Below are positions 18,057-57,098 of a stretch of DNA of 64,000 bases, in pieces. The notes beneath the pieces are model-generated. The model searched no databases. It was not told the DNA's origin and saw only the letters and a list, made by a program, of their open reading frames with translations. The stretch is from Aquirhabdus parva (GTDB taxonomy: Bacteria; Pseudomonadota; Gammaproteobacteria; Pseudomonadales; Moraxellaceae), in NCBI RefSeq assembly GCF_003351745.1, contig NZ_CP031222.1, positions 3,702,207 through 3,766,206 of the forward strand. The letters run 5' to 3'. Within the stretch, counting starts at the first letter, position 1. Each line of letters opens with the position of its first letter. A program made the position numbers and the translations under genes.

Positions 18057-18060
18057 TTGT
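18027..18060. other. Left attachment site (attL) of prophage copy 1
   Basis: From base 18027 onward the sequence matches that at 54710 onward; the base before differs (C versus G) as do all bases further left. The shared part begins ATGCAGGCTCGGCG. This fixes the left edge of the core. The right edge cannot be set without the far chromosomal junction. Confidence 0.8.
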
Positions 18061-18124
18061 TATAAATAAGACATTTATTGAGTTTTAAAAAAATCATGTA
18101 GCAAAGGTGTAGTAACACACTGGC

Positions 18125-20413: not shown

Positions 20414-20415
20414 GA

Positions 20416-20820
20416 TTAGCCCCGCGCCGTAGGCAAAATTTGCAGCAGCGTGTCGATAATTTCTCGAAGTGCTGGAAATTCCGGCTGGTTTGCTTCATCA
20501 AATACGGCTTCGGCTCTTTGATTGCCATACTCAACTATTTTCTTAACAATTGAATCAATATCAAAGGACGGTTCAATATCCAAAGATTCGATGCGATCCT
20601 CAAGTAACACAAGAGCGTCGTGTTCTGCATCTTCTTCGATACTGAATTTTTTAGCCCGGCAATCGTCATAGTTTGAGTCATCTTCCTCTTCATCATATTC
20701 CGCGCTCTCTAAAGAGGCTTGGACATCTTGAAGTGCCGCAAATGCTGGATGACTTGGCGTAACGTGGAGGCGTGCATAGGTCAAGCGTTCAACAGCATCA
20801 TTAAAATGTGCATTCATCAT
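20416..20820 (-). CDS. Hypothetical acidic early phage protein
   Basis: 134 residues, strongly acidic in the middle (EYDEEEDDSNYDD). Start overlaps the beta-clamp stop by one base, so it is translationally coupled to the clamp. Function unknown; the coupling makes a clamp- or replication-related role possible. Confidence 0.68.
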   Translation of the reverse strand: MMNAHFNDAVERLTYARLHVTPSHPAFAALQDVQASLESAEYDEEEDDSNYDDCRAKKFSIEEDAEHDALVLLEDRIESLDIEPSFDIDSIVKKIVEYGNQRAEAVFDEANQPEFPALREIIDTLLQILPTARG

Positions 20821-21950
20821 TAAGCCCTCATGGGTGATAAAGTTATTTGACAGTCCGCACCGTCAACAGGTTCAAAACGTAGTGCTGCGTGTGAATCTGC
20901 AGGCATGAAGATTTTCACGTCCTCGCTATCAATGAATTTCATGGCATCGAGCACGTAATCACGATCAATACAGATCGTGTGATCTAGGTTTTCGGTAAGA
21001 GTAGCTATGCACTCTTCGTTACCGCTTCCGCTTCCGTGTCTCTCGGTGTAATTAACAAGTAGGCGATCTTTGCAAGGGGTAATGGCGATGGCGCAGAAAC
21101 TCTTGCTTGAGTCGGCTATGTAGCCCGCAGTGGCAATTTCAACCGCTTGAGTGAGCTCATGGCGGTTTAGGACCGTATTAAAATCCCCTCTTGGAACAAT
21201 GCGCTTCCAATCAGGGTATTTACCGTCAATTAGCTTGGTTGTGAGTTTTACGCGGTCTACGGTGAAACTGGCTGTACTGCGCTGTAATTGCAGGCAGCAA
21301 GCTTTTTCTTTTGCATTTGAGATTAACTGCACAATAGTCTTAACAGTCGGTGCAGGGATGATTAGAGAGGCAGCAACACCCGTTGTAATGGGTAGGCTAA
21401 AGCTGGCGAGGCGATGACCATTAGATGCAATTAACGTAATTGAATCTTTATCCATTTGAAGGGCTACCCCGGTGAGGTAGTACCGGACATCGTTATGAGC
21501 GACAAAAGGCAGAACGGCTTTTAAGGCAGACGTAAAGTCTTTTGGGTCCTCAAGATCAAGTTGCGCGACCTGTTTAACATCACGATCAATCGACGGTAAA
21601 TCCTCAACTAAGGCCGTCTGCAGCGTTAAAGCCGCTTTGCCGCATTCAATGTGTAGCGTGCGGTTTTCATCTAAGAAAATATTGATCGGCTTAGAGCGAG
21701 TAGACAGGCGCTTAATGATGTTGGTGAAGGCGTAGTTATTGACAGCACATGAGCCCTCTTTAAACTCACCATCAAGCGTCCGGGATGTCTCTATCTCAAT
21801 TTCTGTATTGGTGCCCCGCATAGTTAAAACGCCATGACTCACAGTCAAAGCAACATTGCTTAGGATCGGCATAGTTGATTTTGTGTGAATGGCCGGTGAT
21901 AACGCGGCAAGGTCAGAGGCAATCTGTGTGCCTAAGATTGTGATATTCAT
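20820..21950 (-). CDS. Phage-encoded DNA polymerase III beta subunit (sliding clamp)
   Basis: 376 residues, close to the 366-380 of bacterial DnaN. Recognisable blocks: PILSNVALTVSHGVLTMRGT at the N-terminus, the middle-domain block DVRYYLTGVALQMD ... ASNGHRLA, LIDGKYPDWKRIVPR, and a C-terminus LSPMRA in place of the usual PMRL. The three clamp domains are therefore all present. It may replace or compete with the host clamp for phage replication, or be a decoy for clamp-binding proteins. It lies in the leftward early operon, away from the O-like gene. Divergence from host DnaN cannot be measured here because the host gene is not in the window. Confidence 0.9.
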   Translation of the reverse strand: MNITILGTQIASDLAALSPAIHTKSTMPILSNVALTVSHGVLTMRGTNTEIEIETSRTLDGEFKEGSCAVNNYAFTNIIKRLSTRSKPINIFLDENRTLHIECGKAALTLQTALVEDLPSIDRDVKQVAQLDLEDPKDFTSALKAVLPFVAHNDVRYYLTGVALQMDKDSITLIASNGHRLASFSLPITTGVAASLIIPAPTVKTIVQLISNAKEKACCLQLQRSTASFTVDRVKLTTKLIDGKYPDWKRIVPRGDFNTVLNRHELTQAVEIATAGYIADSSKSFCAIAITPCKDRLLVNYTERHGSGSGNEECIATLTENLDHTICIDRDYVLDAMKFIDSEDVKIFMPADSHAALRFEPVDGADCQITLSPMRA

Positions 21951-22279
21951 TAAGCTGCGACCCCTTCAGTTTTATGAAACTTTGCCTTAGTGATGATTTT
22001 TTTTGCATGATCCAAAGCAAAACAGCCATAAATGCCGCGAGGCTCAAAAACTGAAACCAAAGCTTCCAGCGCTTCAAGAAGTTCCGGCGCTGTAGCAATA
22101 AGCTGCGCATTGCTTGCTTGCACACCGTCAGGATGTTCGCAACCGTAAATCGTTGAAATGCGCGTACCTAAATAGCGTTCGCTATTACTGACAGGGCGAA
22201 TTTCTGCAATTGAATTTGTGCATTGTTCGTGGGGATGGTCAAAGCAGGCCACCCAAGGTCCGGGGGTATGCTTATTCAT
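21950..22279 (-). CDS. HTPGPW-type small phage protein
   Basis: 109 residues starting MNKHTPGPWVACFD and containing NAQLIATAPELLEALEALV. These two blocks define a common early phage protein group of unknown function. One-base overlap with the clamp start; four-base overlap with the upstream gene. Confidence 0.7.
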   Translation of the reverse strand: MNKHTPGPWVACFDHPHEQCTNSIAEIRPVSNSERYLGTRISTIYGCEHPDGVQASNAQLIATAPELLEALEALVSVFEPRGIYGCFALDHAKKIITKAKFHKTEGVAA

Positions 22280-22560
22280 AGATGTACCCCAACAGCACAG
22301 GCCCCGATGTAGAGGCCAAGGAAAACAAGAAAAACACCGATAATCACCAAACCGTTACCGCCTGACTCTGGATCAATTTGAGGCTGTGCAAAGTCGGGGG
22401 CTTGTAAGCGCTGTGTGCAAATCTGATCGATACGCTCAAAATCGATATCTTTGATCGGGTTTGGTTGATTGGTAATGGAAATATCTTTTACCGGGTTTGG
22501 TGTGGCTATGAGATCGATTCCCTCAAGAAATTCTTGTAAATCGCTTTCAAACTTATCCAT
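22276..22560 (-). CDS. Small membrane protein, first gene of the leftward operon
   Basis: 94 residues, N-terminal cytoplasmic-type region with two near-repeats (NPVKDI and NPIKDI), then one C-terminal transmembrane segment (LVIIGVFLVFLGLYIGACAV). The first position after pL would give strong expression early in infection. Function unknown; host take-over or superinfection control are possibilities. Confidence 0.68.
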   Translation of the reverse strand: MDKFESDLQEFLEGIDLIATPNPVKDISITNQPNPIKDIDFERIDQICTQRLQAPDFAQPQIDPESGGNGLVIIGVFLVFLGLYIGACAVGVHL

Positions 22561-22585
22561 AATATTTTTACTCCAACACTATTTG

Positions 22586-22625
22586 GGGTCATGCCCTTGG
22601 TTGCTAGAACAACGTAAGGGCTTTT
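22586..22625 (+). terminator. Rightward-facing terminator between the left operon and its operator
   Basis: Nested stem GCCCTT / AAGGGC with an inner GTTG / CAAC, followed on the plus strand by TTTTTAT. No rightward gene lies before it. On the minus strand no T-run follows, so the left operon is not stopped here. Confidence 0.55.
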
Positions 22626-22657
22626 TATGGGTCGCTGTATGCGTCCTAATGCAACAA

Positions 22658-22713
22658 ATTAAACCATCGGTTTAATATTAAATCAACGGTTAAATTAAAC
22701 CGTTGGTTTAACT
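22658..22713. promoter_or_regulatory. Left operator with three repressor sites and pL
   Basis: Three near-palindromes of type TTAAACC-N3-GGTTTAA are centred at 22667, 22687 and 22704. A minus-strand promoter fits inside: TTGATT at 22687-22682 and TTTAAT at 22663-22658 with 18 bp between, so the first site fills the spacer and the second covers the -35. The same palindrome occurs three times on the other side of the repressor gene. Confidence 0.75.
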
Positions 22714-22751
22714 GGTTACAAAATGATCAATAGATAAGCGATGGACAAAGA

Positions 22752-22782
22752 AAAGCCCACTGTAGAAAGTGGGCTATGTGTT
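22752..22782 (-). terminator. Terminator of the repressor gene
   Basis: On the minus strand AGCCCACT ... AGTGGGCT forms a stem followed by TTTTCTTT, about 60 bp after the repressor stop. Confidence 0.7.
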
Positions 22783-22843
22783 GAATGTAATTTAAGATTT
22801 TTTGCTTAAAATATCATCGATCTTAGGGTAAGTCGGGTAAAGA

Positions 22844-23575
22844 TTATTTTTTGCGGGGGAGTGGGTTTTGTACATCGAAGGCATAACCAAGCACGATAAA
22901 CCGCTGTTCTTTAATTTGCTCTGCAGTAAGTCTTTCTTCCGGGTACTCTTCGGCGTTCTTGCTAACAACACGTAAGCCGCCAAGCGGTAGATTATATAAA
23001 TACTTAAATTTAAAAGCCCCGTCATGCTCAATCGCATAAACGCAACCATCTACAATCTTTGTGTCGCTTAAGTCTACATATACCGTCGCTTTATCCTTAA
23101 TTTCTGGATAATTTGAATTGCCTACCGCAGTCATTGCCGCCGCGCTTGCAGGGTCTACTCCATAACTCTTTAATGTTGAACGACTTAACCAAAGTCGTCG
23201 TGTTTCATTTTTCAAAGCCTCTCCTGTTGCGCCTGATCCACAAGCTAATAAAAAATCCTTATAAAATGGAATGGCTATGTCGTCGTCGTCCATTTCCGTA
23301 TCGTTATCCCATGCGAGGACCGGGGTCACGATGTTTTCTTCTATTGGTATGCCGTCGGGAAGCATTGGCCCTTGACCATCTAGTAACCATCCAGAATTTA
23401 CACCCGTCAACTTGGCAAGTTCGGAAAGTGTGTCGTTTGAAATCTTCCCCTTTTTCCAATTCGTAGCGGCTTGCGCAGAAAAGCCAAGCAGGATTGCAGC
23501 CCGCGACCAAGAGAGCCCTTTGTGATCAAGGGCTAGTTTAATTCTGTCCTGTAGCAGGGCTGGTGTAGATGTCAT
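22844..23575 (-). CDS. CI-like prophage repressor (HTH plus S24 peptidase)
   Basis: 243 residues. A helix-turn-helix (about 8-62; ILLGFSAQAATNWKKGK) is followed by a LexA/S24-type domain. The presumed autocleavage bond is Cys112-Gly113 in LLACGSGATG, a Cys-Gly pair as in UmuD instead of the usual Ala-Gly. The catalytic Ser is probably Ser154 in AVGNSNYPEIKDKATVYVD, a variant of GDSMEP, and the Lys is Lys189 or Lys191 in GAFKFKYL. It is predicted to keep the lytic promoters off and to be cleaved after RecA activation. Flanked on both sides by identical-type operators. Confidence 0.9.
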   Translation of the reverse strand: MTSTPALLQDRIKLALDHKGLSWSRAAILLGFSAQAATNWKKGKISNDTLSELAKLTGVNSGWLLDGQGPMLPDGIPIEENIVTPVLAWDNDTEMDDDDIAIPFYKDFLLACGSGATGEALKNETRRLWLSRSTLKSYGVDPASAAAMTAVGNSNYPEIKDKATVYVDLSDTKIVDGCVYAIEHDGAFKFKYLYNLPLGGLRVVSKNAEEYPEERLTAEQIKEQRFIVLGYAFDVQNPLPRKK

Positions 23576-23589
23576 GTTAACTCCAATGC

Positions 23590-23676
23590 GTTAAACCGCA
23601 GGTTTATATTCTGAGTATTTATAAAACGAAAAGGAATAAACCGCTAGTTGCATTTTTATTAAACCAATGGTTTAAT
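23590..23676. promoter_or_regulatory. Right operator with three repressor sites and pR
   Basis: Palindromes of the TTAAACC-N3-GGTTTAA type are centred at 23599, 23644 (weaker right arm) and 23667. The rightward promoter reads TTGCAT (23648-23653), 17 bp, TTTAAT (23671-23676), with the third site in its spacer, mirroring pL. The first site lies just upstream of the repressor start and could govern pRM. Confidence 0.75.
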
Positions 23677-23708
23677 AATTTGCGGATTAATTAAATTGGA
23701 AATTTAAC

Positions 23709-23990
23709 ATGTCATCACAAAAACAAGTTTCAGCCCTTGAAAAAGCTATTGCTGCGGTAGGTGGTCAAGCAAACGCGGCGGCAATTTGTAATATCAGTGT
23801 TGCGGCCATTGGCCGTTGGGTTAAGCGAGGGCATTTACCACGGACGGAGTACACAGGCGAAACGAACTATGCAGAATTGCTTGCTCAAAGCGTTACAGCC
23901 CAACAGGATTCTTTCACCTCTGAATGGCTATTAGAGCACGCAAACCCTAGCAAGGTTTATAAACCCCAAAGCCTCGCGCTTGTTGGTTAA
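23709..23990 (+). CDS. Cro/YdaS-like DNA-binding protein
   Basis: 93 residues. The segment LEKAIAAVGGQANAAAICN followed by ISVAAIGRWVKRGHLPRTEY is a YdaS/Cro-type helix-turn-helix. First gene from pR and divergent from the repressor, so it is the likely Cro equivalent that favours lytic growth by binding the same operators. Confidence 0.8.
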   Translation: MSSQKQVSALEKAIAAVGGQANAAAICNISVAAIGRWVKRGHLPRTEYTGETNYAELLAQSVTAQQDSFTSEWLLEHANPSKVYKPQSLALVG

Positions 23991-24003
23991 GGCGGTGCAG
24001 ATC

Positions 24004-24237
24004 ATGAGCACTTCTGGACAAGCCGCCGCAATTTTGCAGGCCCTTAAAAATGGCGAATCAATAACGCAAGCTGAGGCTATCCCCCGGTTTAGTTGCTATC
24101 GGCTGGCCGCGCGTATCAATGAACTACGTGCAGCAGGGCATAAGATCGTAACGCAGCATGAGCGCATTAACGGCGGTTCGTTTGGTCGTTATGTATTGGC
24201 CGATGATTCTGTTAAGGCTGGTGCAACCAATGAATAG
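24004..24237 (+). CDS. Helix-turn-helix domain protein
   Basis: I use the ATG at 24004 (MSTSGQAAAILQAL) preceded by AAGGCGG; an in-frame ATG at 23980 overlaps the previous gene. The 77-residue protein holds a winged-HTH-like block (ILQALKNGESITQAEAIPRF ... LAARINELRAAGHKIVTQ). Such proteins are common in Moraxellaceae phages. It may be a CII-like or accessory regulator. Confidence 0.7.
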   Translation: MSTSGQAAAILQALKNGESITQAEAIPRFSCYRLAARINELRAAGHKIVTQHERINGGSFGRYVLADDSVKAGATNE

Positions 24238-25846
24238 CCACATATCAGTAAGTCAAACTACTATTGATTATCTACGTCAGTATTGTGCTTTTGGGGAACC
24301 TGATTTTTATGGGCTATTTCCGCATGAACTTATTGTCGATAATTTTGCAGGCGGTGGCGGGGTAGCAGAGGGCCTTGAAGAGGCGTTTAAGCGTCCGGTT
24401 GATATCGCAATCAATCACGACCCTAAAGCCTTGGCAATGCACCGTATAAACCACCCAATGACGAAGCATTATTGTGAGTCTGTATGGGATGTGGACCCCT
24501 GCGAAATTACCAAAAATCAGCCTGTCGGCTTGGTGTGGCTATCACCAGACTGTAAGCATTTCAGCAAAGCCAAGGGCGGTACACCCGTTGATAAAAAGAT
24601 TCGTGGTTTGGCATGGGTTGCGCTTCGCTGGGCTGCAAAGGTGCGTCCGCGTGTAATCATGCTTGAGAATGTCGAAGAGTTCAAAACCTGGGGGGATGTT
24701 GGCAAAGATGGCAGGCCATGCCCTAAGAGCAAAGGTCGGACCTTCAATTCTTTTGTTAATGCTCTGCGTCGTCAAGGGTATGACGTTGAGTATCGGGTAT
24801 TGCGTGCGCATGACTTCGGAATGCCTACACTGCGTAAGCGTTTCTTTTTGGTAGCCCGTAAGGATGGATTGCCGATTAAGTGGCCTAAACCTACTCATGG
24901 CGATCCAGCAAGTGATGCAGTCAAAAAAGGCAAATTATTGCCTTGGGATATTGTGGCAGATTGTATTGACTGGTCCATTCCATGCCCTTCAATATTTGAA
25001 CGTACAAAGCCGCTGGCCGATGCGACATGCAAGCGAATTGCAACAGGTTTAATGCGTTATGTCGTGAATGCTGATAAGCCGTTTATTGTTAAGTGTAATC
25101 ATACTTCGCCTCAATATTCCGCATTCCGTGGTCAGAGCATTTTTGAACCACTACAAACCATTTCTTCTAAAAATGGCTATGGGATTGTTGCGCCTGTCTT
25201 AACAGAGTGTGCTAACGCTTCATCACCGCGCTGCATGCCTGCTAACGAGCCAATACGCACCATATGCGCTCAAACTAAAGGCGGTCATCATGCCTTGGTT
25301 GCTGCATTTCTAACAAAAAACTATACAGGTGTTGTTGGTTGCCCGGTCACTGGCCCAGCGCACACGATCACCGCAAAAGATCATCATTCTTTGGTGACTT
25401 CCCATCTTGTAAAACTTAGAAATAACAATGTTGGTCAGTCTGTAGAAACCCCGTTACATACCATCACGGCTGGCGGTGGTCATTTTGCCGAAGTGCGGGC
25501 TTTTTTGACAACTTTCTACGGTAACGATAAAGACGGCCAATCACTTGATAAGCCAATTCGCACAATCCCCACACATGACCGTTTCGGGCTAGTCATGGTC
25601 GATGGTATGCCATATCAAATTGATGATATCGGCTTTCGCATGTTGCAACCGCGTGAGCTATTCACCGCGCAAGGGTTTAGGCGTTCTTACATCATTGACC
25701 GCGGTATTGATGAGCATGGCAAGGTTATACGCCTCACCAAAACAGAACAAACTCGGATGTGCGGCAATTCGGTACCGCCGGGTTTACCTAAGGCGCTAGT
25801 TTTGGCGAACTTTGGGCATGAGATTGCATGGAGGGAGTCGGCATGA
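24230..25846 (+). CDS. C5 DNA (cytosine) methyltransferase, phage type
   Basis: Start at the ATG at 24230, which overlaps the previous stop; an upstream ATG adds 24 residues from another gene's coding region. The 538-residue product has motif I FAGGGGVAEGLEEAF, motif IV as SPDCKHFSK (about residue 107; usual PCQ replaced by DCK but catalytic Cys kept), motif VI ENVEEF, motif VIII LRKRFFLVAR and motif X CGNSVPPGLP. Between VIII and X lie about 250 residues made of roughly five divergent repeats of the form P-x-x-TI-x-x-x-x-H-x-LV. It probably protects phage DNA from host restriction. ATGA overlap with the next gene. Confidence 0.9.
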   Translation: MNSHISVSQTTIDYLRQYCAFGEPDFYGLFPHELIVDNFAGGGGVAEGLEEAFKRPVDIAINHDPKALAMHRINHPMTKHYCESVWDVDPCEITKNQPVGLVWLSPDCKHFSKAKGGTPVDKKIRGLAWVALRWAAKVRPRVIMLENVEEFKTWGDVGKDGRPCPKSKGRTFNSFVNALRRQGYDVEYRVLRAHDFGMPTLRKRFFLVARKDGLPIKWPKPTHGDPASDAVKKGKLLPWDIVADCIDWSIPCPSIFERTKPLADATCKRIATGLMRYVVNADKPFIVKCNHTSPQYSAFRGQSIFEPLQTISSKNGYGIVAPVLTECANASSPRCMPANEPIRTICAQTKGGHHALVAAFLTKNYTGVVGCPVTGPAHTITAKDHHSLVTSHLVKLRNNNVGQSVETPLHTITAGGGHFAEVRAFLTTFYGNDKDGQSLDKPIRTIPTHDRFGLVMVDGMPYQIDDIGFRMLQPRELFTAQGFRRSYIIDRGIDEHGKVIRLTKTEQTRMCGNSVPPGLPKALVLANFGHEIAWRESA

Positions 25847-26583
25847 CACGTATTGTTTGCAATTTCTCAGCCGGTGCGGCCAGTGCCGTCGCCACAAAAT
25901 TAGCCCTGCAACAATATCCTGATGCTTTGATCGTTTGTGTGTGGATCAAGGAAGAGCATCCAGACAATGCACGTTTCAGAGCAGATTGTGAAAAATGGTT
26001 TGGCCGTGATGTCACCATCATCAAAGATGAAAAGTACGGCAGTTCTGTGCGTGAAGTATGGCGTAGAGAACGGTTTATGAAGTCGCGCCATGGTGCGCCA
26101 TGTACTCGCATTATAAAGCGTGCCCCTCTTGATAAGTTCGCAATGCCCGGTGACATACAGGTTATTGGTTATACGGCTGATGAGCCATGGAGGCGAGATG
26201 ATTGGTTAGAGCGTCACCCAGATATGCCAATACTTACCCCTTTAATTGATGCTGGCCTAACTAAATCTGATTGTTTAGCAATGGTTGAGCGAGCAGGCAT
26301 AAATCTGCCTGAAATGTATCAACTTGGCTTTAACAATAATAATTGCATCGGTTGCGTAAAAGGTGGGATGGGATATTGGAATAGGGTGCGGACCCATTTC
26401 CCTGATGATTTTGCAGAAATAGCAGCTATACAGGCCGCAATTGGCCCAAGTGCTAATCTTTGGGTGCATGGTGGTAAACGTATAAGCCTGCTTGAATTGC
26501 CTGTCGATGCGGGTCGCCATGATGAGCCTTTGCCTGACTGCAGCATGTTATGCGAACTCGCAGAGCGGGGTTATACAGCATGA
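25843..26583 (+). CDS. PP-loop ATPase, PAPS-reductase-like
   Basis: Start at ATG 25843 with GGAGGGAG upstream and a four-base overlap with the methyltransferase. 246 residues. The N-terminal NFSAGAASAVATKLAL is a degenerate PP-loop (SGGxDS type) and CIGCVKGGMGYW resembles the Cys-pair region of phage PAPS-reductase-family proteins. The family includes sulfate-activation enzymes and the DNA phosphorothioation enzyme DndC. Linkage to a DNA methyltransferase makes a nucleic-acid modification role attractive, but this is inference. Confidence 0.75.
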   Translation: MTRIVCNFSAGAASAVATKLALQQYPDALIVCVWIKEEHPDNARFRADCEKWFGRDVTIIKDEKYGSSVREVWRRERFMKSRHGAPCTRIIKRAPLDKFAMPGDIQVIGYTADEPWRRDDWLERHPDMPILTPLIDAGLTKSDCLAMVERAGINLPEMYQLGFNNNNCIGCVKGGMGYWNRVRTHFPDDFAEIAAIQAAIGPSANLWVHGGKRISLLELPVDAGRHDEPLPDCSMLCELAERGYTA

Positions 26584-27350
26584 GCGTAGATGCCACCGTC
26601 TGGGCTTGGAATGTGCCCGTATTCAGCAGTAGCGAGCGCCTTGTTTTGCTGGCCCTTGCGGATCGTGCTGGTGAGGAAAATACGTGCTGGCCGTCCGCTG
26701 AACGCCTTGAAAAAGATACCCATCTTGATATCAAAACCGTCAAAAAGGTGATCACCGATCTAATCAACCGGGGCCTCATTGCCGACACTGGCAAGCGTAA
26801 GGGGTCAACTGGCCGTGTCCGGGTCCTTGAATTGGTCGGCGTAAAGAACCGTGAAAACTACCGTAATGAACCCAAAAGCGGGTCTGTTGAATCGACCCAA
26901 AAACGGAATGATTCCAAAAACGGAATGATTCCAAATTTGGATTTTAATGAACCCAAATTTGGGTCGTTGAATGAACCCAAAAACGGGTCGTTGAATGAAC
27001 CCAAATTTGGGTCGCAGAACCTAACAGGGAACCTCCCACAGAACCTTCCAAGAACCTCAACTTTTTCGCAAGCGAAAAATCTTCGGTTCTTGGAAGGTTC
27101 TGTGGGAGGTAAGGCAGAAGCCCAACACCACCCACCACCCATATTTTTGACCGCTGGCAATAAGTACACGCTAAAAGAGATGAGAGAGAAGGTATCAATT
27201 GATATTGATGAATATTTTATCAATGATAACTTGCTGAAAAATAAAGACTTTACTGAAACTTTGGCAGAGCTTCACCTTTTAGCAATTAAAGACCCGCAGC
27301 ATTTTAGAAATATTTATAGATTGAATCCACCAGAAGGAATGACAACATGA
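26580..27350 (+). CDS. O-like replication initiator with internal iterons and hairpin
   Basis: Start at ATG 26580 (MSVDATVWAWNVPVFSSSER), overlapping the previous stop. 256 residues. The N-terminal winged HTH (RLVLLALADRAGEENTCWPS ... KTVKKVITDLINRGLI) is typical of phage O/replication proteins. The middle (about 95-145) is NEPKFGSLNEPKNGSLNEPK, encoded by tandem DNA repeats. A further segment is encoded by an 80-nt hairpin. The C-terminal part has no helicase motifs, so it probably loads the host helicase. No separate P-type loader or helicase gene was found. Confidence 0.82.
   Translation: MSVDATVWAWNVPVFSSSERLVLLALADRAGEENTCWPSAERLEKDTHLDIKTVKKVITDLINRGLIADTGKRKGSTGRVRVLELVGVKNRENYRNEPKSGSVESTQKRNDSKNGMIPNLDFNEPKFGSLNEPKNGSLNEPKFGSQNLTGNLPQNLPRTSTFSQAKNLRFLEGSVGGKAEAQHHPPPIFLTAGNKYTLKEMREKVSIDIDEYFINDNLLKNKDFTETLAELHLLAIKDPQHFRNIYRLNPPEGMTT
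26865..27017. repeat. Iterons, candidate replication origin
   Basis: Three tandem 24-bp units (26946-26969, 26970-26993, 26994-27017) of form AATGAACCCAAATTTGGGTC plus four bases, with a degenerate unit at 26865 and partial units between. The core CCCAAATTTGGG is a perfect palindrome. Iterons inside an O-like gene are how lambda-type origins are built. Confidence 0.65.
27031..27110. repeat. Perfect 26-bp inverted repeat forming an 80-nt hairpin
   Basis: The arms 27031-27056 and 27085-27110 are exact reverse complements (beginning ACCTCCCACAGAACCTTCC). Inside is a second hairpin TTTTTCGC / GCGAAAAA at 27062-27079. It sits directly after the iterons, within coding sequence and in frame. Confidence 0.9.
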
Positions 27351-27792: not shown

Positions 27793-28323
27793 ATGAGAGT
27801 AAATTTACATGAAGCGAATGCTTGTGATATTGCAAATTTGAGGGGGTATGGCCCCCGCCAAATTGAAAGTATTCAATATGTGCAAGGTACAGCATTATTT
27901 CTGGTCATGGTGACTGGTAGTGATGAAATGATATATACCTCAGATGGAAAATGCGTTGATAATAAATTGTTTAGTGATGAATCTTGCGACATCCTGAGCG
28001 TTAATAAACGCGTAATTATCAACGCTTGCCCTTTTTGCGGTGGCCCGCCTGTTGTTTTGGTGGAGTTAGATAAAAGCATGATGGCCGTTCGTATTGAGTC
28101 GGACTCGGCTTGGACAACTGAATGTTTTTTAGGGCATGTTTGGTGCCATGAGTGCGGCTCTAAAGGTTCGGAAACTGAGCACGATTTTGGTGATATTTTT
28201 GATTCAGAGGATAGAGAGGCAGTTGCTAGGGAAGCGGTTAGATTGTGGAATAGACGTGAAAATATTTTTGGTGGCGATCATTCCCGGTTGTTTGATGTGA
28301 ACAAAGATACACAAGGGAGATAA
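27793..28323 (+). CDS. Lar-like restriction-alleviation family protein
   Basis: 176 residues. The C-terminal two thirds show the Lar pattern: ACPFCGGPPVVL, then WCHECGSKG and EAVRLWNRR. Proteins of this family include Rac-prophage Lar, which reduces type I restriction; many relatives are uncharacterised. The N-terminal 65 residues are unlike Lar. Stop overlaps the next start by one base. Confidence 0.72.
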   Translation: MRVNLHEANACDIANLRGYGPRQIESIQYVQGTALFLVMVTGSDEMIYTSDGKCVDNKLFSDESCDILSVNKRVIINACPFCGGPPVVLVELDKSMMAVRIESDSAWTTECFLGHVWCHECGSKGSETEHDFGDIFDSEDREAVAREAVRLWNRRENIFGGDHSRLFDVNKDTQGR

Positions 28324-28952
28324 TGAGTATGAGCATTTTAACATTACCTAAAAAGGATAAGTTTGAGCTGATTGATTTAGCACAGAAACTTATGGACGGG
28401 TTTAAAGATGGTCAGTCAAGCACTAAGAAAACCACGGGCGGCAATCGTGTTGCTGAAATGATGGGCGGCTTGCCTGATGATCAATGCGCCTTGCTCTGGG
28501 CTCTAATCCGATCAACCAGAAACAATGACCGATATTTTGGTTTAGTGCAGTTATGCCTAACTAATGCTATCCGTCAACTCTTTGTTGAAAAACAAGTTAA
28601 GTTTGCGAAGCTGAATGCAAAGGATGTTGCAAAAGGAATTGCCCGCTCTGTCTTGACTCAGTATCTTTTCAATAAGGGAATGTGCCGCATATGCTGCGGC
28701 GATGGCAAGCATACAACACCGCATTTTCCATATTTTAGAGACTGTCATTTTTGTGCGGGTACGGGTACGGCAAACTATACCGGAGTAGAACGCCATAGAC
28801 TCACGGGCTTAGATATCGCAAGACAAGTCTATCTGCGAACCTACGGTGAGTTTGAGCAGGCAGCATTCGATATTTTGCACGCTTGGCGGCTTGGATTAGA
28901 TATTCATTTGCGCGGTTATTTTTACCATGCAGCAATAGAATATGATTTATAG
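28323..28952 (+). CDS. Q-like late antiterminator
   Basis: 209 residues with a DnaJ-like Cys cluster CRICCGDG ... CHFCAGTG (about residues 120-143), as in zinc-binding antitermination proteins of lambdoid phages. Last gene of the rightward early operon, directly followed by a promoter-terminator pair and the late genes. Function is inferred from these two observations. Confidence 0.7.
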   Translation: MSMSILTLPKKDKFELIDLAQKLMDGFKDGQSSTKKTTGGNRVAEMMGGLPDDQCALLWALIRSTRNNDRYFGLVQLCLTNAIRQLFVEKQVKFAKLNAKDVAKGIARSVLTQYLFNKGMCRICCGDGKHTTPHFPYFRDCHFCAGTGTANYTGVERHRLTGLDIARQVYLRTYGEFEQAAFDILHAWRLGLDIHLRGYFYHAAIEYDL

Positions 28953-28956
28953 GGGG

Positions 28957-28985
28957 TTGCTTCGGGTGCAGATTTGGGGTATGTT
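28957..28985 (+). promoter_or_regulatory. Candidate late promoter (pR'-like)
   Basis: TTGCTT, 17 bp, TATGTT, starting four bases after the Q-like stop and about 30 bp before a terminator. Confidence 0.5.
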
Positions 28986-29010
28986 TTCGCCATAGTGGAA
29001 AAATACGCAA

Positions 29011-29045
29011 AAAGCTCAGGTCTTAATTGATTCTGGGCTTTTTTA
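29011..29045 (+). terminator. Candidate tR'-like terminator
   Basis: AAGCTCAGG ... CTGGGCTT stem (imperfect, with G-U pairs) followed by TTTTTTATT. It would block the late operon until a Q-modified polymerase reads through. Confidence 0.6.
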
Positions 29046-29070
29046 TTGCCTGTTATTTTTGGAGAACATC

Positions 29071-29424
29071 GTGGAAAATCAACACCGTAAAATCAAAGGC
29101 TACCGCGATTTAAGTCAAGAAGAAATTGACCTGATGAATCGTATCAAGGCTAAGGGTTCAGAGCTCTTGGAGTTGCAGGCAGAGTTGATGTGCCGCCTAA
29201 ATACTGACCTAAGTATTAAAAATGGTCAGATTGGTACATATGAGTCTTATTACAATTTAGCGCCCAATGATGCAACGGCTTATAAGGTATTCAACGAAGC
29301 TAAAGACGAACTAGCTCGTTTTAAAGCCGCTGAGCCTCAACGCTGGGCCGCAATCGGCAAGACTGACATTGAGACGGGCATTATGGCCCTTGTTCGTTCA
29401 ATCGCTCAGCCTGCGCCTTTCTAA
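29071..29424 (+). CDS. Acb2/Tad1-like cyclic-nucleotide sponge (anti-CBASS)
   Basis: The GTG at 29071 (protein MENQHRKIKGYRDLSQEE) with GGAG six bases upstream fits the family N-terminus better than the TTG at 29059. The 117-residue protein has the blocks I recall for phage Acb2 proteins: GYRDLSQEEIDLMNRIKAKG near the start and RWAAIGKTDIETGIMALVRS at the end. These flank a helical hairpin, here extended by a central insertion of about 35 residues. Acb2 binds cyclic di- and trinucleotides and thereby blocks CBASS (and in some cases Thoeris). First gene of the late operon. The match is from memory; a profile search should settle it. Confidence 0.75.
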   Translation: MENQHRKIKGYRDLSQEEIDLMNRIKAKGSELLELQAELMCRLNTDLSIKNGQIGTYESYYNLAPNDATAYKVFNEAKDELARFKAAEPQRWAAIGKTDIETGIMALVRSIAQPAPF

Positions 29425-29434
29425 GAATAAAGCC

Positions 29435-29571
29435 AAGGGGTGCGGTGTGGTGAGTGCCTCCCCCGACATAAATTAACTCACCACTAATTCGAGACAAAGC
29501 CCCCGAAGGGAATGGTTCGCCGGTTGCCATTCCAAAATCAGTCAACCCGGCACTAATTTGTTGTACCCCTT
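29435..29571 (+). ncRNA. Candidate structured RNA with a closing helix and H-type pseudoknot
   Basis: No gene fits 29425-29618 on the plus strand. Four helices can be drawn by eye. P1 closes the domain: 29435-29445 with 29561-29571 (AAGGGGTGCGG / TTGTACCCCTT, with G-U pairs). P2 is a perfect 8-bp hairpin, 29448-29455 with 29476-29483 (TGGTGAGT / ACTCACCA). P3 is a perfect 7-bp hairpin, 29509-29515 with 29527-29533. The P3 loop (29519-29526, GCCGGTTG) pairs with 29543-29551 (CAACCCGGC, one bulged C), giving a compact H-type pseudoknot with a 3-nt first loop and an A-rich last loop. A terminator follows at once. The fold is my own and not computed. Confidence 0.5.
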
Positions 29572-29602
29572 CCCCCTTGTTGCTTGCAGCAGGGGATTTT
29601 TT
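29572..29602 (+). terminator. Rho-independent terminator after the structured RNA
   Basis: CCCC-T-TGTTGC pairs with GCAGCAGGGG and is followed by ATTTTTTATTT. It would give the upstream RNA a defined 3' end and lies just before the next gene's ribosome site. Confidence 0.75.
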
Positions 29603-29618
29603 ATTTGTGGAGTTCGAT

Positions 29619-29909
29619 ATGTCAGCCAAAGAACTAAGAGAGCGTCTTATTTTAGGTGTTCTTGCATATCGCCCTGATATGAATATAGAACAGGTTCTTT
29701 TAGTAGCAAAAGACCTTGAGTCTTGGGTCAATGGTGATGACAACTTTAGCCCAGATAGTGAAACAAAACCGCAGAAAGGCGTGTCTGTAATGCCTGCAGT
29801 GACCAGTATAACTAAGGGTTGTCCAAATAAAGGCAAGGCATGTTTTTGTACTGGTGCATGTATGGGTAATGGTACGGATTCAAATTTTATAAAAGGTTTT
29901 ATTACTTAA
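29619..29909 (+). CDS. Hypothetical late phage protein with Cys-rich tail
   Basis: ATG at 29619 with GTGGAG upstream; the frame opens earlier but within the terminator. The 96-residue protein has a helical acidic N-terminus and a Cys-containing segment GCPNKGKACFCTGACMG near the end. No family recognised. Confidence 0.6.
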   Translation: MSAKELRERLILGVLAYRPDMNIEQVLLVAKDLESWVNGDDNFSPDSETKPQKGVSVMPAVTSITKGCPNKGKACFCTGACMGNGTDSNFIKGFIT

Positions 29910-29936
29910 GAGAATCTTCTTAATAGAGGTTTTTTT

Positions 29937-30013
29937 TGCGGTGTAGTTCAGCCCGGTAGAACGTGAGAGTCATAACCTCAACGCCGCTGGTTCAAATCCA
30001 GCCGCCGCAACCA
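29937..30013 (+). tRNA. Phage-encoded tRNA with anticodon CAT (Met-type)
   Basis: Complete 77-nt cloverleaf: acceptor TGCGGTG / CGCCGCA, D arm GTTC / GAAC, anticodon CAT, T arm GCTGG / CCAGC and encoded CCA. Unlike the host initiator it has a paired 1-72 position and no GGG/CCC anticodon stem. It may read AUG (elongator) or, if its C34 is lysidinylated, AUA. Confidence 0.85.
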
Positions 30014-30035
30014 TATTTTTTAGGGCCTGTTAATC

Positions 30036-30215
30036 ATGAAGATCATCAAGGCTGGTCGTCCTGCAGATTCAAAGCCATATATCGCTGATTGCCGCGATTG
30101 TGGCGCACGCTTTGAGTTTATGAGGCATGAGGCCCAGCTTAAATATGATCGGCAGCATAGTTGCTTAGCGATCAATTGCCCTTGGTGCCATAAAGAAATT
30201 CATAAGGCGGTTTAA
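30036..30215 (+). CDS. Small zinc-ribbon-like late protein
   Basis: 59 residues starting MKIIKAGRPADSKPYIADC, with two Cys pairs CRDCGARFEF and CPWCHKEI that form a plausible four-Cys zinc site. The stop is adjacent to the next start (TAAATG). Function unknown. Confidence 0.65.
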   Translation: MKIIKAGRPADSKPYIADCRDCGARFEFMRHEAQLKYDRQHSCLAINCPWCHKEIHKAV

Positions 30216-30848
30216 ATGAGCGCCCGGCCATTCCCTCCAACACATTTAAAGCCTGATGAGGGTGTTTATGTTGAGGGGTCGCAGTTTGCGCCCGCGCCCG
30301 ATGTATGGGATTGGATACATAACAATATTATCGATCCCTCTGGATCAATCCATAACCCGGATCATGAGCATTTAATGGGTCAAACAGAGATTGCTGTGAT
30401 GTGGTCAAGTGAGCCATTCATAAAGCAGGGTCGCAGGGTATTAGGTCAATGTGAGTCTGTGGCTTTTCGTGCTGGTGGTTGGCAAAAACTAAGACAAGAA
30501 CGACAAATGCTTGATTGGTTCGGCTATGTGCCTAAATTTCTTATTACATTGGCCGCGTCATATTGCTTTGAGTGTTCGGATTCAGATTTTTGCGCCCTTG
30601 TTGAACATGAGCTTTATCACATAGCTCAAGCTGTGAACGAATTTGATATGCCGAAGTTTAACAAGCAAACCGGGCAAGCAATCCTGACCATGCGCGGCCA
30701 TGATGTTGAAGAGTTTAAAGGTGTTGTGCGTCGTTATGGCGCGAGTGAGGATGTGCAAATGCTGGTTGATGTTGCCAATAATCCACCAGAGGTATCACGG
30801 GCAGACATAGCTCACTCATGCGGTACATGCTTATTAAGGCTGGCTTAG
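30216..30848 (+). CDS. Putative phage metallopeptidase
   Basis: 210 residues with a zincin motif HELYH in LVEHELYHIAQA (about residue 130). Matches the 'putative phage metallopeptidase' group commonly found just before terminase genes in Moraxellaceae and Pseudomonas phages. Substrate unknown. Follows the zinc-ribbon gene without a gap. Confidence 0.78.
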   Translation: MSARPFPPTHLKPDEGVYVEGSQFAPAPDVWDWIHNNIIDPSGSIHNPDHEHLMGQTEIAVMWSSEPFIKQGRRVLGQCESVAFRAGGWQKLRQERQMLDWFGYVPKFLITLAASYCFECSDSDFCALVEHELYHIAQAVNEFDMPKFNKQTGQAILTMRGHDVEEFKGVVRRYGASEDVQMLVDVANNPPEVSRADIAHSCGTCLLRLA

Positions 30849-35271: not shown

Positions 35272-36114
35272 ATGGACGAACTTTCATACACCGTAGCTTC
35301 CGACGAACCAACGCCAGAAACTGCAGCAGAGGCCCCGGAAACCCAAGCGACAGCACAACCGGGTGAACCAGAAGCCGAAGTAGTAGAACTGACGGAGGAA
35401 GAGCAGGCCGAAGCCGAAAAGGAAAAACAAACCAAAGCTAAGCAGTCAGCATTTGACCGCCGCATTGGGGAAGTTACCCGACAAAAACATGATGCTGATC
35501 GTCGTGCGGCTGAGGCAGAGCGGGTTGCTAATGAGTTACGCGCACGATACGAACCGCAAAATGCTACCGCCAGCAATCAAGTGCCTACGATTGATCAATT
35601 TGAATCAATCCCTGCTTATGAGAAAGCTGTGCAGGATTACTGGCAAGAGCAAGCTAAATCGTCGGTGCAAAAAGAGTTTGAGCAGAAAAAACAAGCCCAA
35701 GATGAGGCAATTATTGGGCAGAAATTTGTCCAAGCCGAAGCAGAATACGCTAAATCTAATCCCGATTATGAGAATGTTTTAACCTCAATGGTTCCTTTTA
35801 TCGGGCCAGAAGGATTGCCAGTGCATTTAAAAGACGCAATTTTACGTGCTGATGATGCGCCGGCTATGCTTTATGAGTTGGGTAAAGATTTAGCGGGTTT
35901 TGCTGATTTTCTTGGTAAGTCGCCCACTGAGCAACTCATGGAATTGGGAGCCGTCCGCGCAAGTTTAAAAAACAACGGTGCAGCAGCGCCGCGTACACCT
36001 GCAGCAGCAAACCTACCAAAACCCATTTCAACAGTATCAGGCCGAACCACTGTTAAGACTGATCCTTACGCGATGAGCGATAAGGACTTCTTAGCGGCGA
36101 AAGGTCTGAGATAA
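35272..36114 (+). CDS. Scaffolding protein
   Basis: 280 residues, acidic Ala/Glu/Pro-rich N-terminus, long charged coiled-coil middle (about 55-150) and basic C-terminal tail. The composition and the position between portal and coat are those of P22 gp8. Called from position and composition. Confidence 0.78.
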   Translation: MDELSYTVASDEPTPETAAEAPETQATAQPGEPEAEVVELTEEEQAEAEKEKQTKAKQSAFDRRIGEVTRQKHDADRRAAEAERVANELRARYEPQNATASNQVPTIDQFESIPAYEKAVQDYWQEQAKSSVQKEFEQKKQAQDEAIIGQKFVQAEAEYAKSNPDYENVLTSMVPFIGPEGLPVHLKDAILRADDAPAMLYELGKDLAGFADFLGKSPTEQLMELGAVRASLKNNGAAAPRTPAAANLPKPISTVSGRTTVKTDPYAMSDKDFLAAKGLR

Positions 36115-36127
36115 AAGGATATAGAAA

Positions 36128-37375
36128 ATGCCAAATCCAGTCTCTAACAACACGATTATTACTCATGACATCATCGCCAAAGATGCGGCGGTGATGTTTC
36201 TTGAGGAATCAACTTTTGTTAAATCGATCAACCGTGATCGAGAGCAAGAGTTCGGAAAAGACCGAGGCGGTTATACAGCTGGTGAGTCTGTCCGTATTAA
36301 AATCCCTCCTACACCCGTTGTCACCGATGGCGACGTGTGGTCACCAACTGATGCCGCAAAAAATGCGGTTGAAGAAACCATTTTGCTGAAAGTCGATACG
36401 CCTAAACACGTAGGGCTCAAATTCGGTTCAATTGAACAGGCTTTGAAGTTTGGTGAGTACAACGCAAAAGGCGGTTTTAAAGAGCGTATCTTGAAGCCTG
36501 CTGTTAAGGCGCTTGTTTCTGTCGTTGAAGCGGACATGTTGCAACGTGCAATTATTCTCACAAATAACTTTGTGGCGAATACTGGCCCGCTGACCACGCT
36601 GTCGCCATATGACAATGCCCGAGCTGCGCTGCAACGCAATCTTTGCCCTGAGGATAACCGTCAATCCTTAATCACCAGTAATATGAACGTTGGGCTTGTT
36701 TCGGCATCACGCCAGTTATTTAATTCGCAAAAAGACCTTGCCAAGCAATATACCGAAGGCTGGATTGGTCGCTATGCTGGCTTTGATTTTCATGAGCATC
36801 AATCGCTGTATCGCTCGACCAATGGTACGCAGGTTGCGGGTGTCACCGTATCGGGTGCTTCGCAAACGGGCGGAACATTGACGATTGGCGGCGTGACCAA
36901 TGGCACGATCTTTAAGGCTGGCATGATCTTCACCATGACAGGTGTGAACATGTTGCATCCTCTGACCAAGCAAGATACTGGCAATCTCATGCAGTTTGTC
37001 GTACTTGCTGATGCGACGATGGGCGGTACTACTGGTGCGTTAACGATCTATCCTAAGATCACACCAGCAGGAACTGCGAATGCCAATGTGACGGCTTCAC
37101 CAGCAGGTGGCGCAGGTTTAACTTTCGTTGGTGCTGCAAACCAGACCATCGAGCAAGGGTTAGCCTATCAGGGCGATGCTTACGCGGCGGCTTTTGTACC
37201 TCAGAAGCTACTTGCAGGATGTGTTGGTAGCACTTTTGATGCGGGTACCTTCTCAATTCGCTGCATGACCTTTGGTGATGGTGTGAATAACTTTGAAGGT
37301 ACACGCCTTGATGTGTTGTACGGCTTTACGGGCGTTCGCAATAATTGGGCTGTGCGCACAGGCGTAGGCTTGTAA
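36128..37375 (+). CDS. Major capsid protein, P22 gp5-like
   Basis: 415 residues, near the 430 of P22 coat. The start (TIITHDIIAKDAAVMFLEES) and the block GESVRIKIPPTP are typical of the P22 coat family; a beta-rich insertion (about 235-330) corresponds to the inserted domain. Strong terminator follows. Confidence 0.93.
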   Translation: MPNPVSNNTIITHDIIAKDAAVMFLEESTFVKSINRDREQEFGKDRGGYTAGESVRIKIPPTPVVTDGDVWSPTDAAKNAVEETILLKVDTPKHVGLKFGSIEQALKFGEYNAKGGFKERILKPAVKALVSVVEADMLQRAIILTNNFVANTGPLTTLSPYDNARAALQRNLCPEDNRQSLITSNMNVGLVSASRQLFNSQKDLAKQYTEGWIGRYAGFDFHEHQSLYRSTNGTQVAGVTVSGASQTGGTLTIGGVTNGTIFKAGMIFTMTGVNMLHPLTKQDTGNLMQFVVLADATMGGTTGALTIYPKITPAGTANANVTASPAGGAGLTFVGAANQTIEQGLAYQGDAYAAAFVPQKLLAGCVGSTFDAGTFSIRCMTFGDGVNNFEGTRLDVLYGFTGVRNNWAVRTGVGL

Positions 37376-37404
37376 TAGTCATTTAACCTTAAACACAAAC
37401 CAAT

Positions 37405-37443
37405 AAACGACAAAAGCCGCCTTCGGGTGGCTTTGTCGTTTTT
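37405..37443 (+). terminator. Terminator after the coat gene
   Basis: A stem of about 15 bp with a TTCG tetraloop (AACGACAAAAGCCGCC / GGTGGCTTTGTCGTT) then TTTTT. Partial termination here would give extra coat mRNA. Confidence 0.9.
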
Positions 37444-37456
37444 GAGGATTTAAAAA

Positions 37457-37948
37457 ATGTCAGAACCTATTGAATACCCAAAGGCTCTTTATCGTGATCA
37501 TGCTGATCATGCAATCGCTAAAGACGAAGAGCATGAGGCCCGTTTACGTGAACTAGGTTACGGGGATTTTTCGGAGCTTGATCACTCAGACCATAAAACT
37601 ACTGAGTCTGAAACTAATGCCCAAACAGAGGCATCGGGTGATGTTGCTTTTCTGCAAGCGCGAGTTGAAAACCTTGAAGGGCTTTTAACACGCGCAGAAT
37701 CAGACCTAACTGCAATCGATATTCGTAACAAAGAGCTAGTCTCTGACCTAGAAAAAGCTAATGCAACTATTGCAGAGCATGTGCAAACCATTGCTGAAAT
37801 GGAAGGGCATGCAGAGAAAGGTATTGCAGAGATTGAGCGTTTAAACAACGAAGTCTCTTCTTTTCAAGTCACCGTTAATGGCTTGCAAGAGCAAATAGCA
37901 AAATCAAATGCAGATGTATCAAAAACTGATAAAAAGGATAGCAAATAA
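37457..37948 (+). CDS. Coiled-coil head-tail region protein
   Basis: 163 residues. N-terminal acidic region with many His/Asp (DHADHAIAKDEEHEARLREL), then a long heptad coiled coil from about 60 to 150. One-base overlap with the gp4-like gene. No P22 counterpart recognised. Confidence 0.7.
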   Translation: MSEPIEYPKALYRDHADHAIAKDEEHEARLRELGYGDFSELDHSDHKTTESETNAQTEASGDVAFLQARVENLEGLLTRAESDLTAIDIRNKELVSDLEKANATIAEHVQTIAEMEGHAEKGIAEIERLNNEVSSFQVTVNGLQEQIAKSNADVSKTDKKDSK

Positions 37949-38352
37949 TGAAACCTGTTCTTAGTTTGCTGCGGGAGGCCGCACGCAAAGCGAATCTAAT
38001 CGCGTCCGGTGAAAATCTCAATGCAGACCAAGAGCAGGAGTCATTAGAGGCGCTTAACACGTTATTGGACGGGTGGGCGCTCACTCTTCGCAATGGTTCT
38101 TTGCCACAGAGTGTTAAGGTGACTGATACCTTATATTTACCTGATGGTTACGCATCAGCAATCATGTATAACTTGGCGGTGCAGATCAGTGTTGATAATG
38201 AATTACAGATTGATCCCGAAGTTCAGCAAATGGCGCTTAATACCTTGTCTGCAGTGCGCCGTGATGGTACCGCGCCATTAAAATCTAAAGGTGATACCAC
38301 ACTAAGCCGTATGAGCCGCCGTCATGGTCTAGGACGAAATTTCTATGGCTAA
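37948..38352 (+). CDS. Tail accessory factor, P22 gp4-like
   Basis: 134 residues, all helical, with the family block GENLNADQEQESLEALNTLL followed by DGW. P22 gp4 is the adaptor under the portal. Position between coat and hub agrees. Overlaps the next gene by eight bases. Confidence 0.82.
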   Translation: MKPVLSLLREAARKANLIASGENLNADQEQESLEALNTLLDGWALTLRNGSLPQSVKVTDTLYLPDGYASAIMYNLAVQISVDNELQIDPEVQQMALNTLSAVRRDGTAPLKSKGDTTLSRMSRRHGLGRNFYG

Positions 38353-39970
38353 GTTACCCATAGTCGGCGCGGCTTATAAAAACCCTTCGCTGATCATTGA
38401 TTGTCAGAATACGATTAATTGGTACCCTCAAGCCATTGAGCTACCTAATGGTGCACAACGTGTATCTGCACTAATACCAACACCCGGATTAATCCGCCGA
38501 TTCACGGGTGATAGTGCGGCAGTTCGTTGTCTAAAAGTTTTGTCTACTGGTCAGCTTTTAGCGGTGATTGGGAAGAAGCTTTATCACAGCCCGGCCAATA
38601 CTTTTAATCTGACTCAAGTCACTGGCGTGATTATGGGGCTAGATATTGTCTCGATTGCTGATAATGGCACCGTGGCTATGATCGTCAACGGCAATACAAA
38701 TCAAGTCTTAGACCTGAAAACCTTGGTACTGACTACACTCACCGGCTCGAATATTCCGCGATCTTCTTTTGTGGTTTTTCTTGATGGCCGCTTTGTGATG
38801 AATAAAGAGAAGTCCGACCGCTTTGTATGGTCTGACTTGTACTCAACCAATATTGACGCACTGTCATATGCTACTGCAGAGGCAAGTCCTGACCCTATGG
38901 TTGCCTTGGTCGAGTTTCAGCGCGAACTGTGGATGTTTGGCACTCAGACCACAGAACGCTATTACTCCAACAATGACAAAGATCAACCCTTTGCACGTAT
39001 GCCCGGCGGCGTGTTTGAAATGGGGTGTTTAGCCCCTAATAGTGTATGTGCATTTGGTACAGGGATAATTTGGCTTGCTGTATCAGAATTTGGCGGCAAT
39101 CAGATTGTGATGAGTTCCGGCGGTCAGCCTGTCCGTCTCAGTAATCATGCTATTGAGGGTGAAATTGACTCTTATCCAACAAATAATGATGCGGTGGCAT
39201 TTGCCTACCAACAAGAAGGTCATTCTTTTTATGTGATTAGTTTCCCCTCTGGGAATACCACATTTGTTTTTGATATGACAACGCAGCTTTGGCACCAACG
39301 ATCATGGACCAATACACAAGGGCAACATGACCGTCACCGCGCTCATATTCACGCCTATTTCAACGGTACCCATTATGTGGGTGACTACAGTAACGGCAAG
39401 ATTTACGAATTAGACCGTGGAACCTATACCGATGATGGCAACATCATTACCCGTGAGCGCACTTGTCCTGCAACGCTTACAGACGGTCAAATGATGCGGT
39501 TTACGCGGCTTGAGATTGTTTGCGAGACGGGTGATTTAAAGAAGAGGGGGATTCCCCCCGATTTAGAAATCCATTCATACACAAGTCAGCCTTACCCTTA
39601 TATGTTTAATGATGTTTTTAAGGTTGGCGGCAGTTTAACAGGCATTTCACTTAGACCTAACTTTTACACCATCCCTGCAGAAATCTTTCGTATGGGGGCA
39701 TCTCTAACAGCAATTAACCTGCCTGTTGCAGTCACTTACGGCACGTACAACATTCCGCCTGAGGCGTTCAAGCCTTCTGCATCTATGACCGCAATAGATA
39801 TGCCTATCTTGGTGAGTTACGGAACATACAACATTCCTGCAGAAGCCTTTAAACCATCAGCATCCATGTCTGCGATATCTCTGCCGATTGTCGCTTCCTA
39901 CTTAACATATAGCATTCCTGCAGAACCTTTCAACATCGGTGCTAGTCTTACTGGAGTCACCTTAGCATGA
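38345..39970 (+). CDS. Tail hub / DNA-stabilisation protein, P22 gp10-like, with novel C-terminus
   Basis: Residues 1 to about 395 match the gp10 family (LPIVGAAYKNPSLIIDCQNT, NWYPQ, a beta-propeller-like body with RFVWSDLY and LWMFGTQTTERYY, ending in RLEIVCETGD). The usual family ending, a block of type WSDDGGxTWSN ... GEYxxRVxxRRxG, is missing here. Instead there are about 120 residues with four to five repeats of roughly 28 residues (TYNIPAEAFKPSASM type). The missing ending is present 1.5 kb downstream as a separate small gene. Confidence 0.85.
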   Translation: MAKLPIVGAAYKNPSLIIDCQNTINWYPQAIELPNGAQRVSALIPTPGLIRRFTGDSAAVRCLKVLSTGQLLAVIGKKLYHSPANTFNLTQVTGVIMGLDIVSIADNGTVAMIVNGNTNQVLDLKTLVLTTLTGSNIPRSSFVVFLDGRFVMNKEKSDRFVWSDLYSTNIDALSYATAEASPDPMVALVEFQRELWMFGTQTTERYYSNNDKDQPFARMPGGVFEMGCLAPNSVCAFGTGIIWLAVSEFGGNQIVMSSGGQPVRLSNHAIEGEIDSYPTNNDAVAFAYQQEGHSFYVISFPSGNTTFVFDMTTQLWHQRSWTNTQGQHDRHRAHIHAYFNGTHYVGDYSNGKIYELDRGTYTDDGNIITRERTCPATLTDGQMMRFTRLEIVCETGDLKKRGIPPDLEIHSYTSQPYPYMFNDVFKVGGSLTGISLRPNFYTIPAEIFRMGASLTAINLPVAVTYGTYNIPPEAFKPSASMTAIDMPILVSYGTYNIPAEAFKPSASMSAISLPIVASYLTYSIPAEPFNIGASLTGVTLA

Positions 39971-54743: not shown

Positions 54744-54807
54744 TATAAATAAGACATTTATTGAGTTTTAAAAAAATCATGTAGCAAAGGTGTAGTAACA
54801 CACTGGC

Positions 54808-57096: not shown

Positions 57097-57098
57097 GA

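Follow-up and report, generated by a model that had tools for sequence, protein, structure and literature searches.

Among described systems, the closest to the element reported here are the type III toxin-antitoxin loci. In these, as set out in PMC5086642, repeats, a terminator and a toxin gene stand in that order, and the repeats are H-type pseudoknots. That source gives 34-36 nt for ToxI-type repeats and describes CptI only as longer (PMC5086642). A phage-borne relative of such RNAs is the 'pseudo-ToxI' of phage TE, which is presented in PMC3475682 as an intergenic repeat RNA that suppresses ToxN. Here, we examine a putative RNA element at 29425-29602 (+) of the window, by which we mean the whole 64,000-nucleotide stretch of Aquirhabdus parva DNA analysed. 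The element lies directly 3' of the stop of a 117-aa acb2-like gene. Like the type III antitoxin RNAs (ToxI, antiQ, CptI and TenpI), it appears to hold tandem repeats, with an H-type pseudoknot predicted for each unit; its second unit combines a short first loop with an A-rich last loop, and an intrinsic terminator (29574-29602) stands between the repeats and the next gene.

The resemblance is incomplete. The units measure 66 and 70 nt, unlike the ToxI-type repeats of 34-36 nt (PMC5086642). They are two in number and only 58% alike, and no recognisable toxin of the ToxN, CptN or TenpN type lies 3' of them. The ToxN family gave no match in the organism's own genome, in a search whose control was also silent. 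Because repeat length and downstream protein both misfit, we do not file the element as a type III antitoxin. With the pseudo-ToxI of phage TE it shares the character of a phage-borne intergenic repeat RNA; that RNA, however, resembles the ToxI of its host (PMC3475682), whereas no similar host sequence was found for the element. Structured 3' UTRs offer a further comparison, since the element comes straight after a stop codon and has an intrinsic terminator at its end. It differs from such 3' UTRs in carrying a duplicated pseudoknot unit, for which a terminator has no need. In the largely open-access literature covered, we found no described RNA of such a kind beside Acb2.

Prophage setting and coding content

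The features flanking the element are as follows.

29009-29044, + strand: terminator-like hairpin and T run, 5' of acb2 (z -2.0 for the fold of 28953-29070)
29071-29424, + strand: acb2-like gene, 117 aa, GTG start, Pfam PF24729
29619-29909, + strand: orphan ORF, 96 aa, directly 3' of the terminator, with gene-like codon usage
29937-30013, + strand: phage tRNA-Met gene (CAT)

The acb2-like product matches Acb2_Tad1_hairpin (PF24729) with 64.8 bits (E 8.4e-18) against a curated Pfam cut-off of 27, and it has matches in 185 phage records. Beyond the 96-aa ORF come the tRNA-Met gene, a zinc-ribbon gene, a metallopeptidase-like gene (PhageMetallopep in Pfam, labelled 'transposase' in PHROG) and the terminase genes. 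The first-pass annotation had placed the element in a prophage next to an anti-CBASS-like gene, and both points are borne out, the element lying upstream of the terminase module. The prophage forms a tandem dimer whose unit measures 36,683 bases, and window positions 18024-27317 and 54707-64000 agree at 99.99%. The ends of the single contig lie inside the second prophage copy, and they overlap where the sequence corresponds to window 35417-38485. The element is present twice, and since its copy 36,683 bases further on is unchanged, the second prophage copy adds no comparative information.

The acb2 stop codon is 10 nt upstream of the closing helix of the element, and the 3' end of the element is the intrinsic terminator, 17 nt ahead of the 96-aa ORF. 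The acb2 cargo gene thus sits between two terminator-like hairpins. The upstream one (29009-29044), absent from the output of the terminator pattern scan, is only 27 nt from the acb2 start; with so little room acb2 can hardly own a promoter after the hairpin, and it probably relies on read-through itself. The hairpin also points to a need for read-through or antitermination in the late region. Shuffles predict 1.5 terminator-like sites for the 1.5 kb covered by the pattern scan and two were found, so this count proves nothing by itself. A scan with sigma-70-type consensus only found no + strand sigma-70-like promoter in 28800-30300. This weakens the proposal that the element is an independent small RNA, while an RNA processed from a 3' UTR is possible.

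The one long frame across the element (29381-29836, - strand) has a codon log-odds of -0.09. The scored neighbour genes lie at 0.13 to 0.30 and six further antisense frames at -0.09 to -0.30; the genes on which the score was trained included one of those scored (30216-30848). On this value a minus-strand gene across the element was rejected, and the frame has no PHROG match, in agreement with the original reading that the stretch holds no credible gene. The 96-aa ORF, whose GTGGAG and ATG come no more than 17 nt after the T run of the terminator, is an orphan: searches of viral contigs, genome contigs, phage records and 298 other genomes of the family yielded no relatives, and it has no Pfam match at E 0.1 and no PHROG match. 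Structure prediction returned a poor model of two helices with a mean pLDDT of 51.8. The tail of this ORF is cysteine-rich.

Helices, tandem units and comparison with chance

The repeat units and helices of the element, all on the + strand, are listed below.

29425-29490, + strand: repeat unit 1, direct repeat delimited by alignment, 66 nt
29491-29560, + strand: repeat unit 2, direct repeat delimited by alignment, 70 nt
29435-29445/29561-29571, + strand: closing helix, 11 pairs, 3 of them G-U
29437-29441/29456-29460, + strand: unit 1 stem S1, 5 bp
29439-29446/29456-29464, + strand: unit 1 stem S1 in the register homologous to unit 2, 6/8 pairs
29447-29455/29476-29484, + strand: unit 1 stem S2 (first hairpin), 9 bp, pair probability 0.98-1.0
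29509-29516/29526-29533, + strand: unit 2 stem S1, 7 bp (29509-29515/29527-29533) plus one U-G
29519-29526/29543-29551, + strand: unit 2 stem S2, pseudoknot partner of S1, 8 bp with a bulged C29546
29534-29542, + strand: A-rich last loop of unit 2
29574-29602, + strand: intrinsic terminator, 9-bp stem 29574-29595, then ATTTTTT

Most of these helices had been pointed out in the first-pass annotation. The closing helix, the terminator and the 7-bp hairpin are present, the last extended by one U-G. The 'perfect 8-bp hairpin' exists as a hairpin of 9 bp (unit 1 S2), and the pseudoknot helix of unit 2 is of the H-type with 8 bp, yet is not perfect on account of its bulge. The annotation missed the tandem two-unit repeat. 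A repeat search returned a 27-nt direct repeat at 29463 and 29532, and the two units can be aligned over their whole length, sharing 38 of 65 aligned bases (58%). Shuffled unit pairs were as similar in 5/5000 cases by global score and 8/5000 by local score. The score of the best self-match is reached by 3/1000 shuffles, yet 28 of the 863 windows of 148 nt in the 64 kb are as good. An H-type pseudoknot is predicted in both units with a shared layout, namely S1, the S2 5' strand abutting the S1 3' strand, the last loop, the S2 3' strand and CTAATT/TAATT. The unit 1 pseudoknot was ranked top by the pseudoknot scan before the repeat was noticed.

In an alignment made from sequence only, S1 pairs in 6/8 columns in unit 1 and 8/8 in unit 2, and five S2 core columns are paired in both. 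Four pairs have changed on both sides with pairing kept, whereas a slid partner gives 0 or 1. Under a neutral-duplicate null in which unit 2 drifts, all 13 pairs are kept in 0.3% of cases when the same columns change and in 0.003% when the columns are random; starting from unit 2, 11 or more pairs are kept in 0.5%. The S2 core alone is kept in 2-7%. A column shuffle gives a weaker result, with 37/500 for two-sided changes and 6/500 for cells paired. As the repeat, joint-energy and covariation tests were chosen after the sequence was seen and the covariation compares two sequences, the unit-to-unit covariation is only suggestive. The element appears to be better read as two diverged tandem copies of one pseudoknot fold.

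The nested minimum free energy of the element is -58.2 kcal/mol. Unit 1 S1 needs a strand that the closing helix also uses, so that the two compete, and the nested ensemble puts the closing helix over unit 1 S1, with most closing-helix pairs at a probability near 1 and unit 1 S1 at 0; the closing helix stands as the stronger fold in this ensemble. In its homologous register unit 1 S1 has two mismatches, and only the S2 core can coexist with it, because the full 9-bp S2 would leave no first loop. On crude scores, the closing helix with the unit 2 pseudoknot reaches -47.2, against a sum of about -42 for two separate pseudoknots. The closing-helix fold and the tandem-pseudoknot fold may alternate. 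Our preference for the tandem-pseudoknot model over the closing helix is a judgement, made on the repeat evidence and on the ability of unit 1 to fold first.

The first-pass annotation held that so many helices were unlikely by chance. The nested energy was equalled by 1/200 shuffles and, in a second run, by 6/400 (z about -2.4), yet a nested z as low occurs in 21/360 control windows taken from the 64 kb (178 nt long, with 25 shuffles apiece); the nested fold alone is thus weak evidence and modestly unusual. The best H-type pseudoknot score in the element, that of unit 1, is reached by 16/1000 shuffles and, with the element included, by 8 of 1436 windows (178 nt, both strands); the score of the unit 2 pseudoknot is reached by 23/1436, counted in the same way. 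With the terminator excluded, nested and pseudoknot energy taken together was matched by none of 400 shuffles (z -2.9). Folding of the minus strand stays at the level of its shuffles (z -0.6). Runs of C and G in the element permit many alternative helices. Unit 1 bases 29441-29451 and the start of the tRNA-Met gene (29937-29947) are identical at 10 of 11 positions, probably by chance.

Searches for relatives

Credible copies of the element outside the prophage were found in none of the databases and genomes searched. Rfam at gathering thresholds returned only 3 tRNAs in the whole window and no match in the element, which accords with the earlier view that it belongs to no recognised class; at E 10 nothing came near threshold, the best in the element being Ref84 with 22.5 bits vs 52. 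With blastn, phage records gave no match at E 1 (241 bases) or E 10 (178 bases), and plasmid records gave two matches only, of 23 and 25 nt. Among 58 relatives, more than 20-26 nt were matched solely in the organism's own genome. The short matches among them comprise 20-24 nt in L003, L004, L005 and L007; a 26-nt match in L002 falls within a transporter-like gene and was dismissed as chance.

Two models extended the search, R1 being a single-sequence model of the element and R2 a model of the repeat unit. Under strict filters and in overlapping genome sets, R1 recovered the own genome only from 348 family genomes and from 369 class genomes, and from 390 order genomes the own genome with two further matches, placed within genes or at a gene end; L300 (the end of a 512-aa gene plus a terminator) and L301 (inside a 374-aa gene) were rejected as chance matches. 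R1 found no credible match in the 80 of 199 acb2 viral loci kept, in the 80 of 126 metallopeptidase loci kept or in 43 further acb2 loci from genomes. With nhmmer over 296 loci, only the own copies fell below E 3. In 36 relatives and 289 family genomes R2 returned the own genome plus two weak in-gene matches (L345 and L349, set aside as chance), and in 94 acb2 loci nothing. Candidates from a gapped pattern (L342 and L343, in open frames with low scores) and those with 13.6 and 12.6 bits (L047 and L025) were likewise put down to chance. A 15-base pattern matched at least 120 stretches and led to no relative. The upstream gene at 28323-28952, searched in viral contigs, gave no lead to relatives of the element, and a TerL search found one relative, which is without the element.

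Possible roles of the element

Tentatively, and at somewhat less than an even chance, we take the element to be the 3' untranslated end of the acb2 transcript, structured and closed by an intrinsic terminator, in the prophage late region. This reading draws on the start 10 nt after the acb2 stop, the terminator at the end and the failure to find a + strand promoter, and also on the joint energy, the repeat similarity and the compensatory changes; the place of acb2 between two terminator-like hairpins was counted for it as well. The helices, the repeat, the terminator and the lack of coding signal are computed, and we infer transcription and function. One unit of about 70 nt folding as an H-type pseudoknot would have undergone tandem duplication. 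The element would be transcribed from an upstream promoter, its compact pseudoknots could protect the acb2 mRNA against 3'-to-5' degradation, and, unless an antiterminator is at work, the terminator may keep down read-through into the structural genes. A stable RNA of about 170 nt may remain. Against this stand several points: the element is no general partner of acb2, a plain terminator needs neither repeats nor pseudoknots, the promoter scan covered the sigma-70 type only, and the 27 nt after the upstream hairpin leave acb2 hardly any promoter of its own. If the element is a 3' UTR only, it would be an example of a short RNA knot duplicated with its helices kept, in which repeat-to-repeat comparison stands in, weakly, for the missing homologs.

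That the structure arose by chance in an intergenic stretch rich in C and G runs, with the terminator alone at work, is somewhat unlikely. The control windows that match the nested z (21/360) and the internal repeat (28/863), the many alternative helices open to such runs, the weak shuffle test for two-sided changes (37/500) and the failure of every search to find a homolog all fit this view, but the joint energy (0/400), the repeat similarity (5 and 8/5000) and the neutral-duplicate null (0.003 for the same changed columns, 3e-5 for random columns) speak against it, all being post hoc tests. An intercistronic leader, that is, a riboswitch or attenuator controlling the downstream ORF through the terminator, is improbable, and with it the ligand-sensing leader proposed at first. 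The GTGGAG and ATG so close behind the T run would suit a leader, as would the competition between unit 1 S1 and the closing helix for one strand. The obvious antiterminator, however, in which a 5' AAGGGG holds the 5' arm of the terminator, was the one candidate tested and was rejected, being 11 kcal/mol worse with a pair probability of 0; nor is there an Rfam match, or anything that links the orphan downstream ORF to a ligand. A DNA-level packaging element (cos or pac) with two repeats bound by terminase is very improbable. Its direct repeats would fit, as would a location some 1.3 kb ahead of the putative small terminase gene, yet metallopeptidase, zinc-ribbon and tRNA genes intervene, the pairing-preserving changes are explained by RNA, and the minus strand lacks unusual folding.

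A trans-acting, protein-binding RNA similar to a type III antitoxin would be anti-defence cargo next to Acb2 and would neutralise, or serve as a decoy for, a toxin or defence protein that binds RNA. We regard this as unlikely. Two tandem H-type pseudoknot units with an A-rich last loop, then a terminator and a gene, match the arrangement and the pseudoknot repeats that type III loci share (PMC5086642); the suppression of ToxN by a phage pseudo-ToxI is a precedent (PMC3475682), and the adjoining gene is an anti-CBASS one. Set against this are the length and divergence of the units relative to the ToxI type (PMC5086642), a downstream ORF with neither a Pfam match nor a good structural model, the absence of a ToxN family match in the own genome (with its silent control) and the failure of R2 to find a host copy to mimic outside the prophage. 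Two more specific forms, quite unlikely when taken together, are a new tandem-pseudoknot phage RNA that would disarm an RNA-binding defence protein in trans, paired as cargo with Acb2, or the antitoxin of an undescribed RNA-protein pair with the 96-aa ORF. If the RNA does act in trans, a single anti-defence locus of a phage would combine protein sponges with RNA decoys, and the neighbourhood of Acb2 would be a place to seek more by guilt by association.

On the loci of acb2 relatives, a general pairing of acb2 with such an RNA was rejected. Of 120 acb2 loci, 90 have their next ORF (45 aa or more) starting within 100 nt; the gap is longer in the other 30, some of which hold strong unrelated folds. 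On these loci the element is particular to this phage. In one viral contig a long stable hairpin lies just 3' of the acb2 relative (L026 4348-4530, z -6.4 over 180 nt), and in another an Rfam RT-15 RNA is found about 1.8 kb 3' of the acb2 relative (L039 6176-6356, 163 bits, gathering threshold 82).
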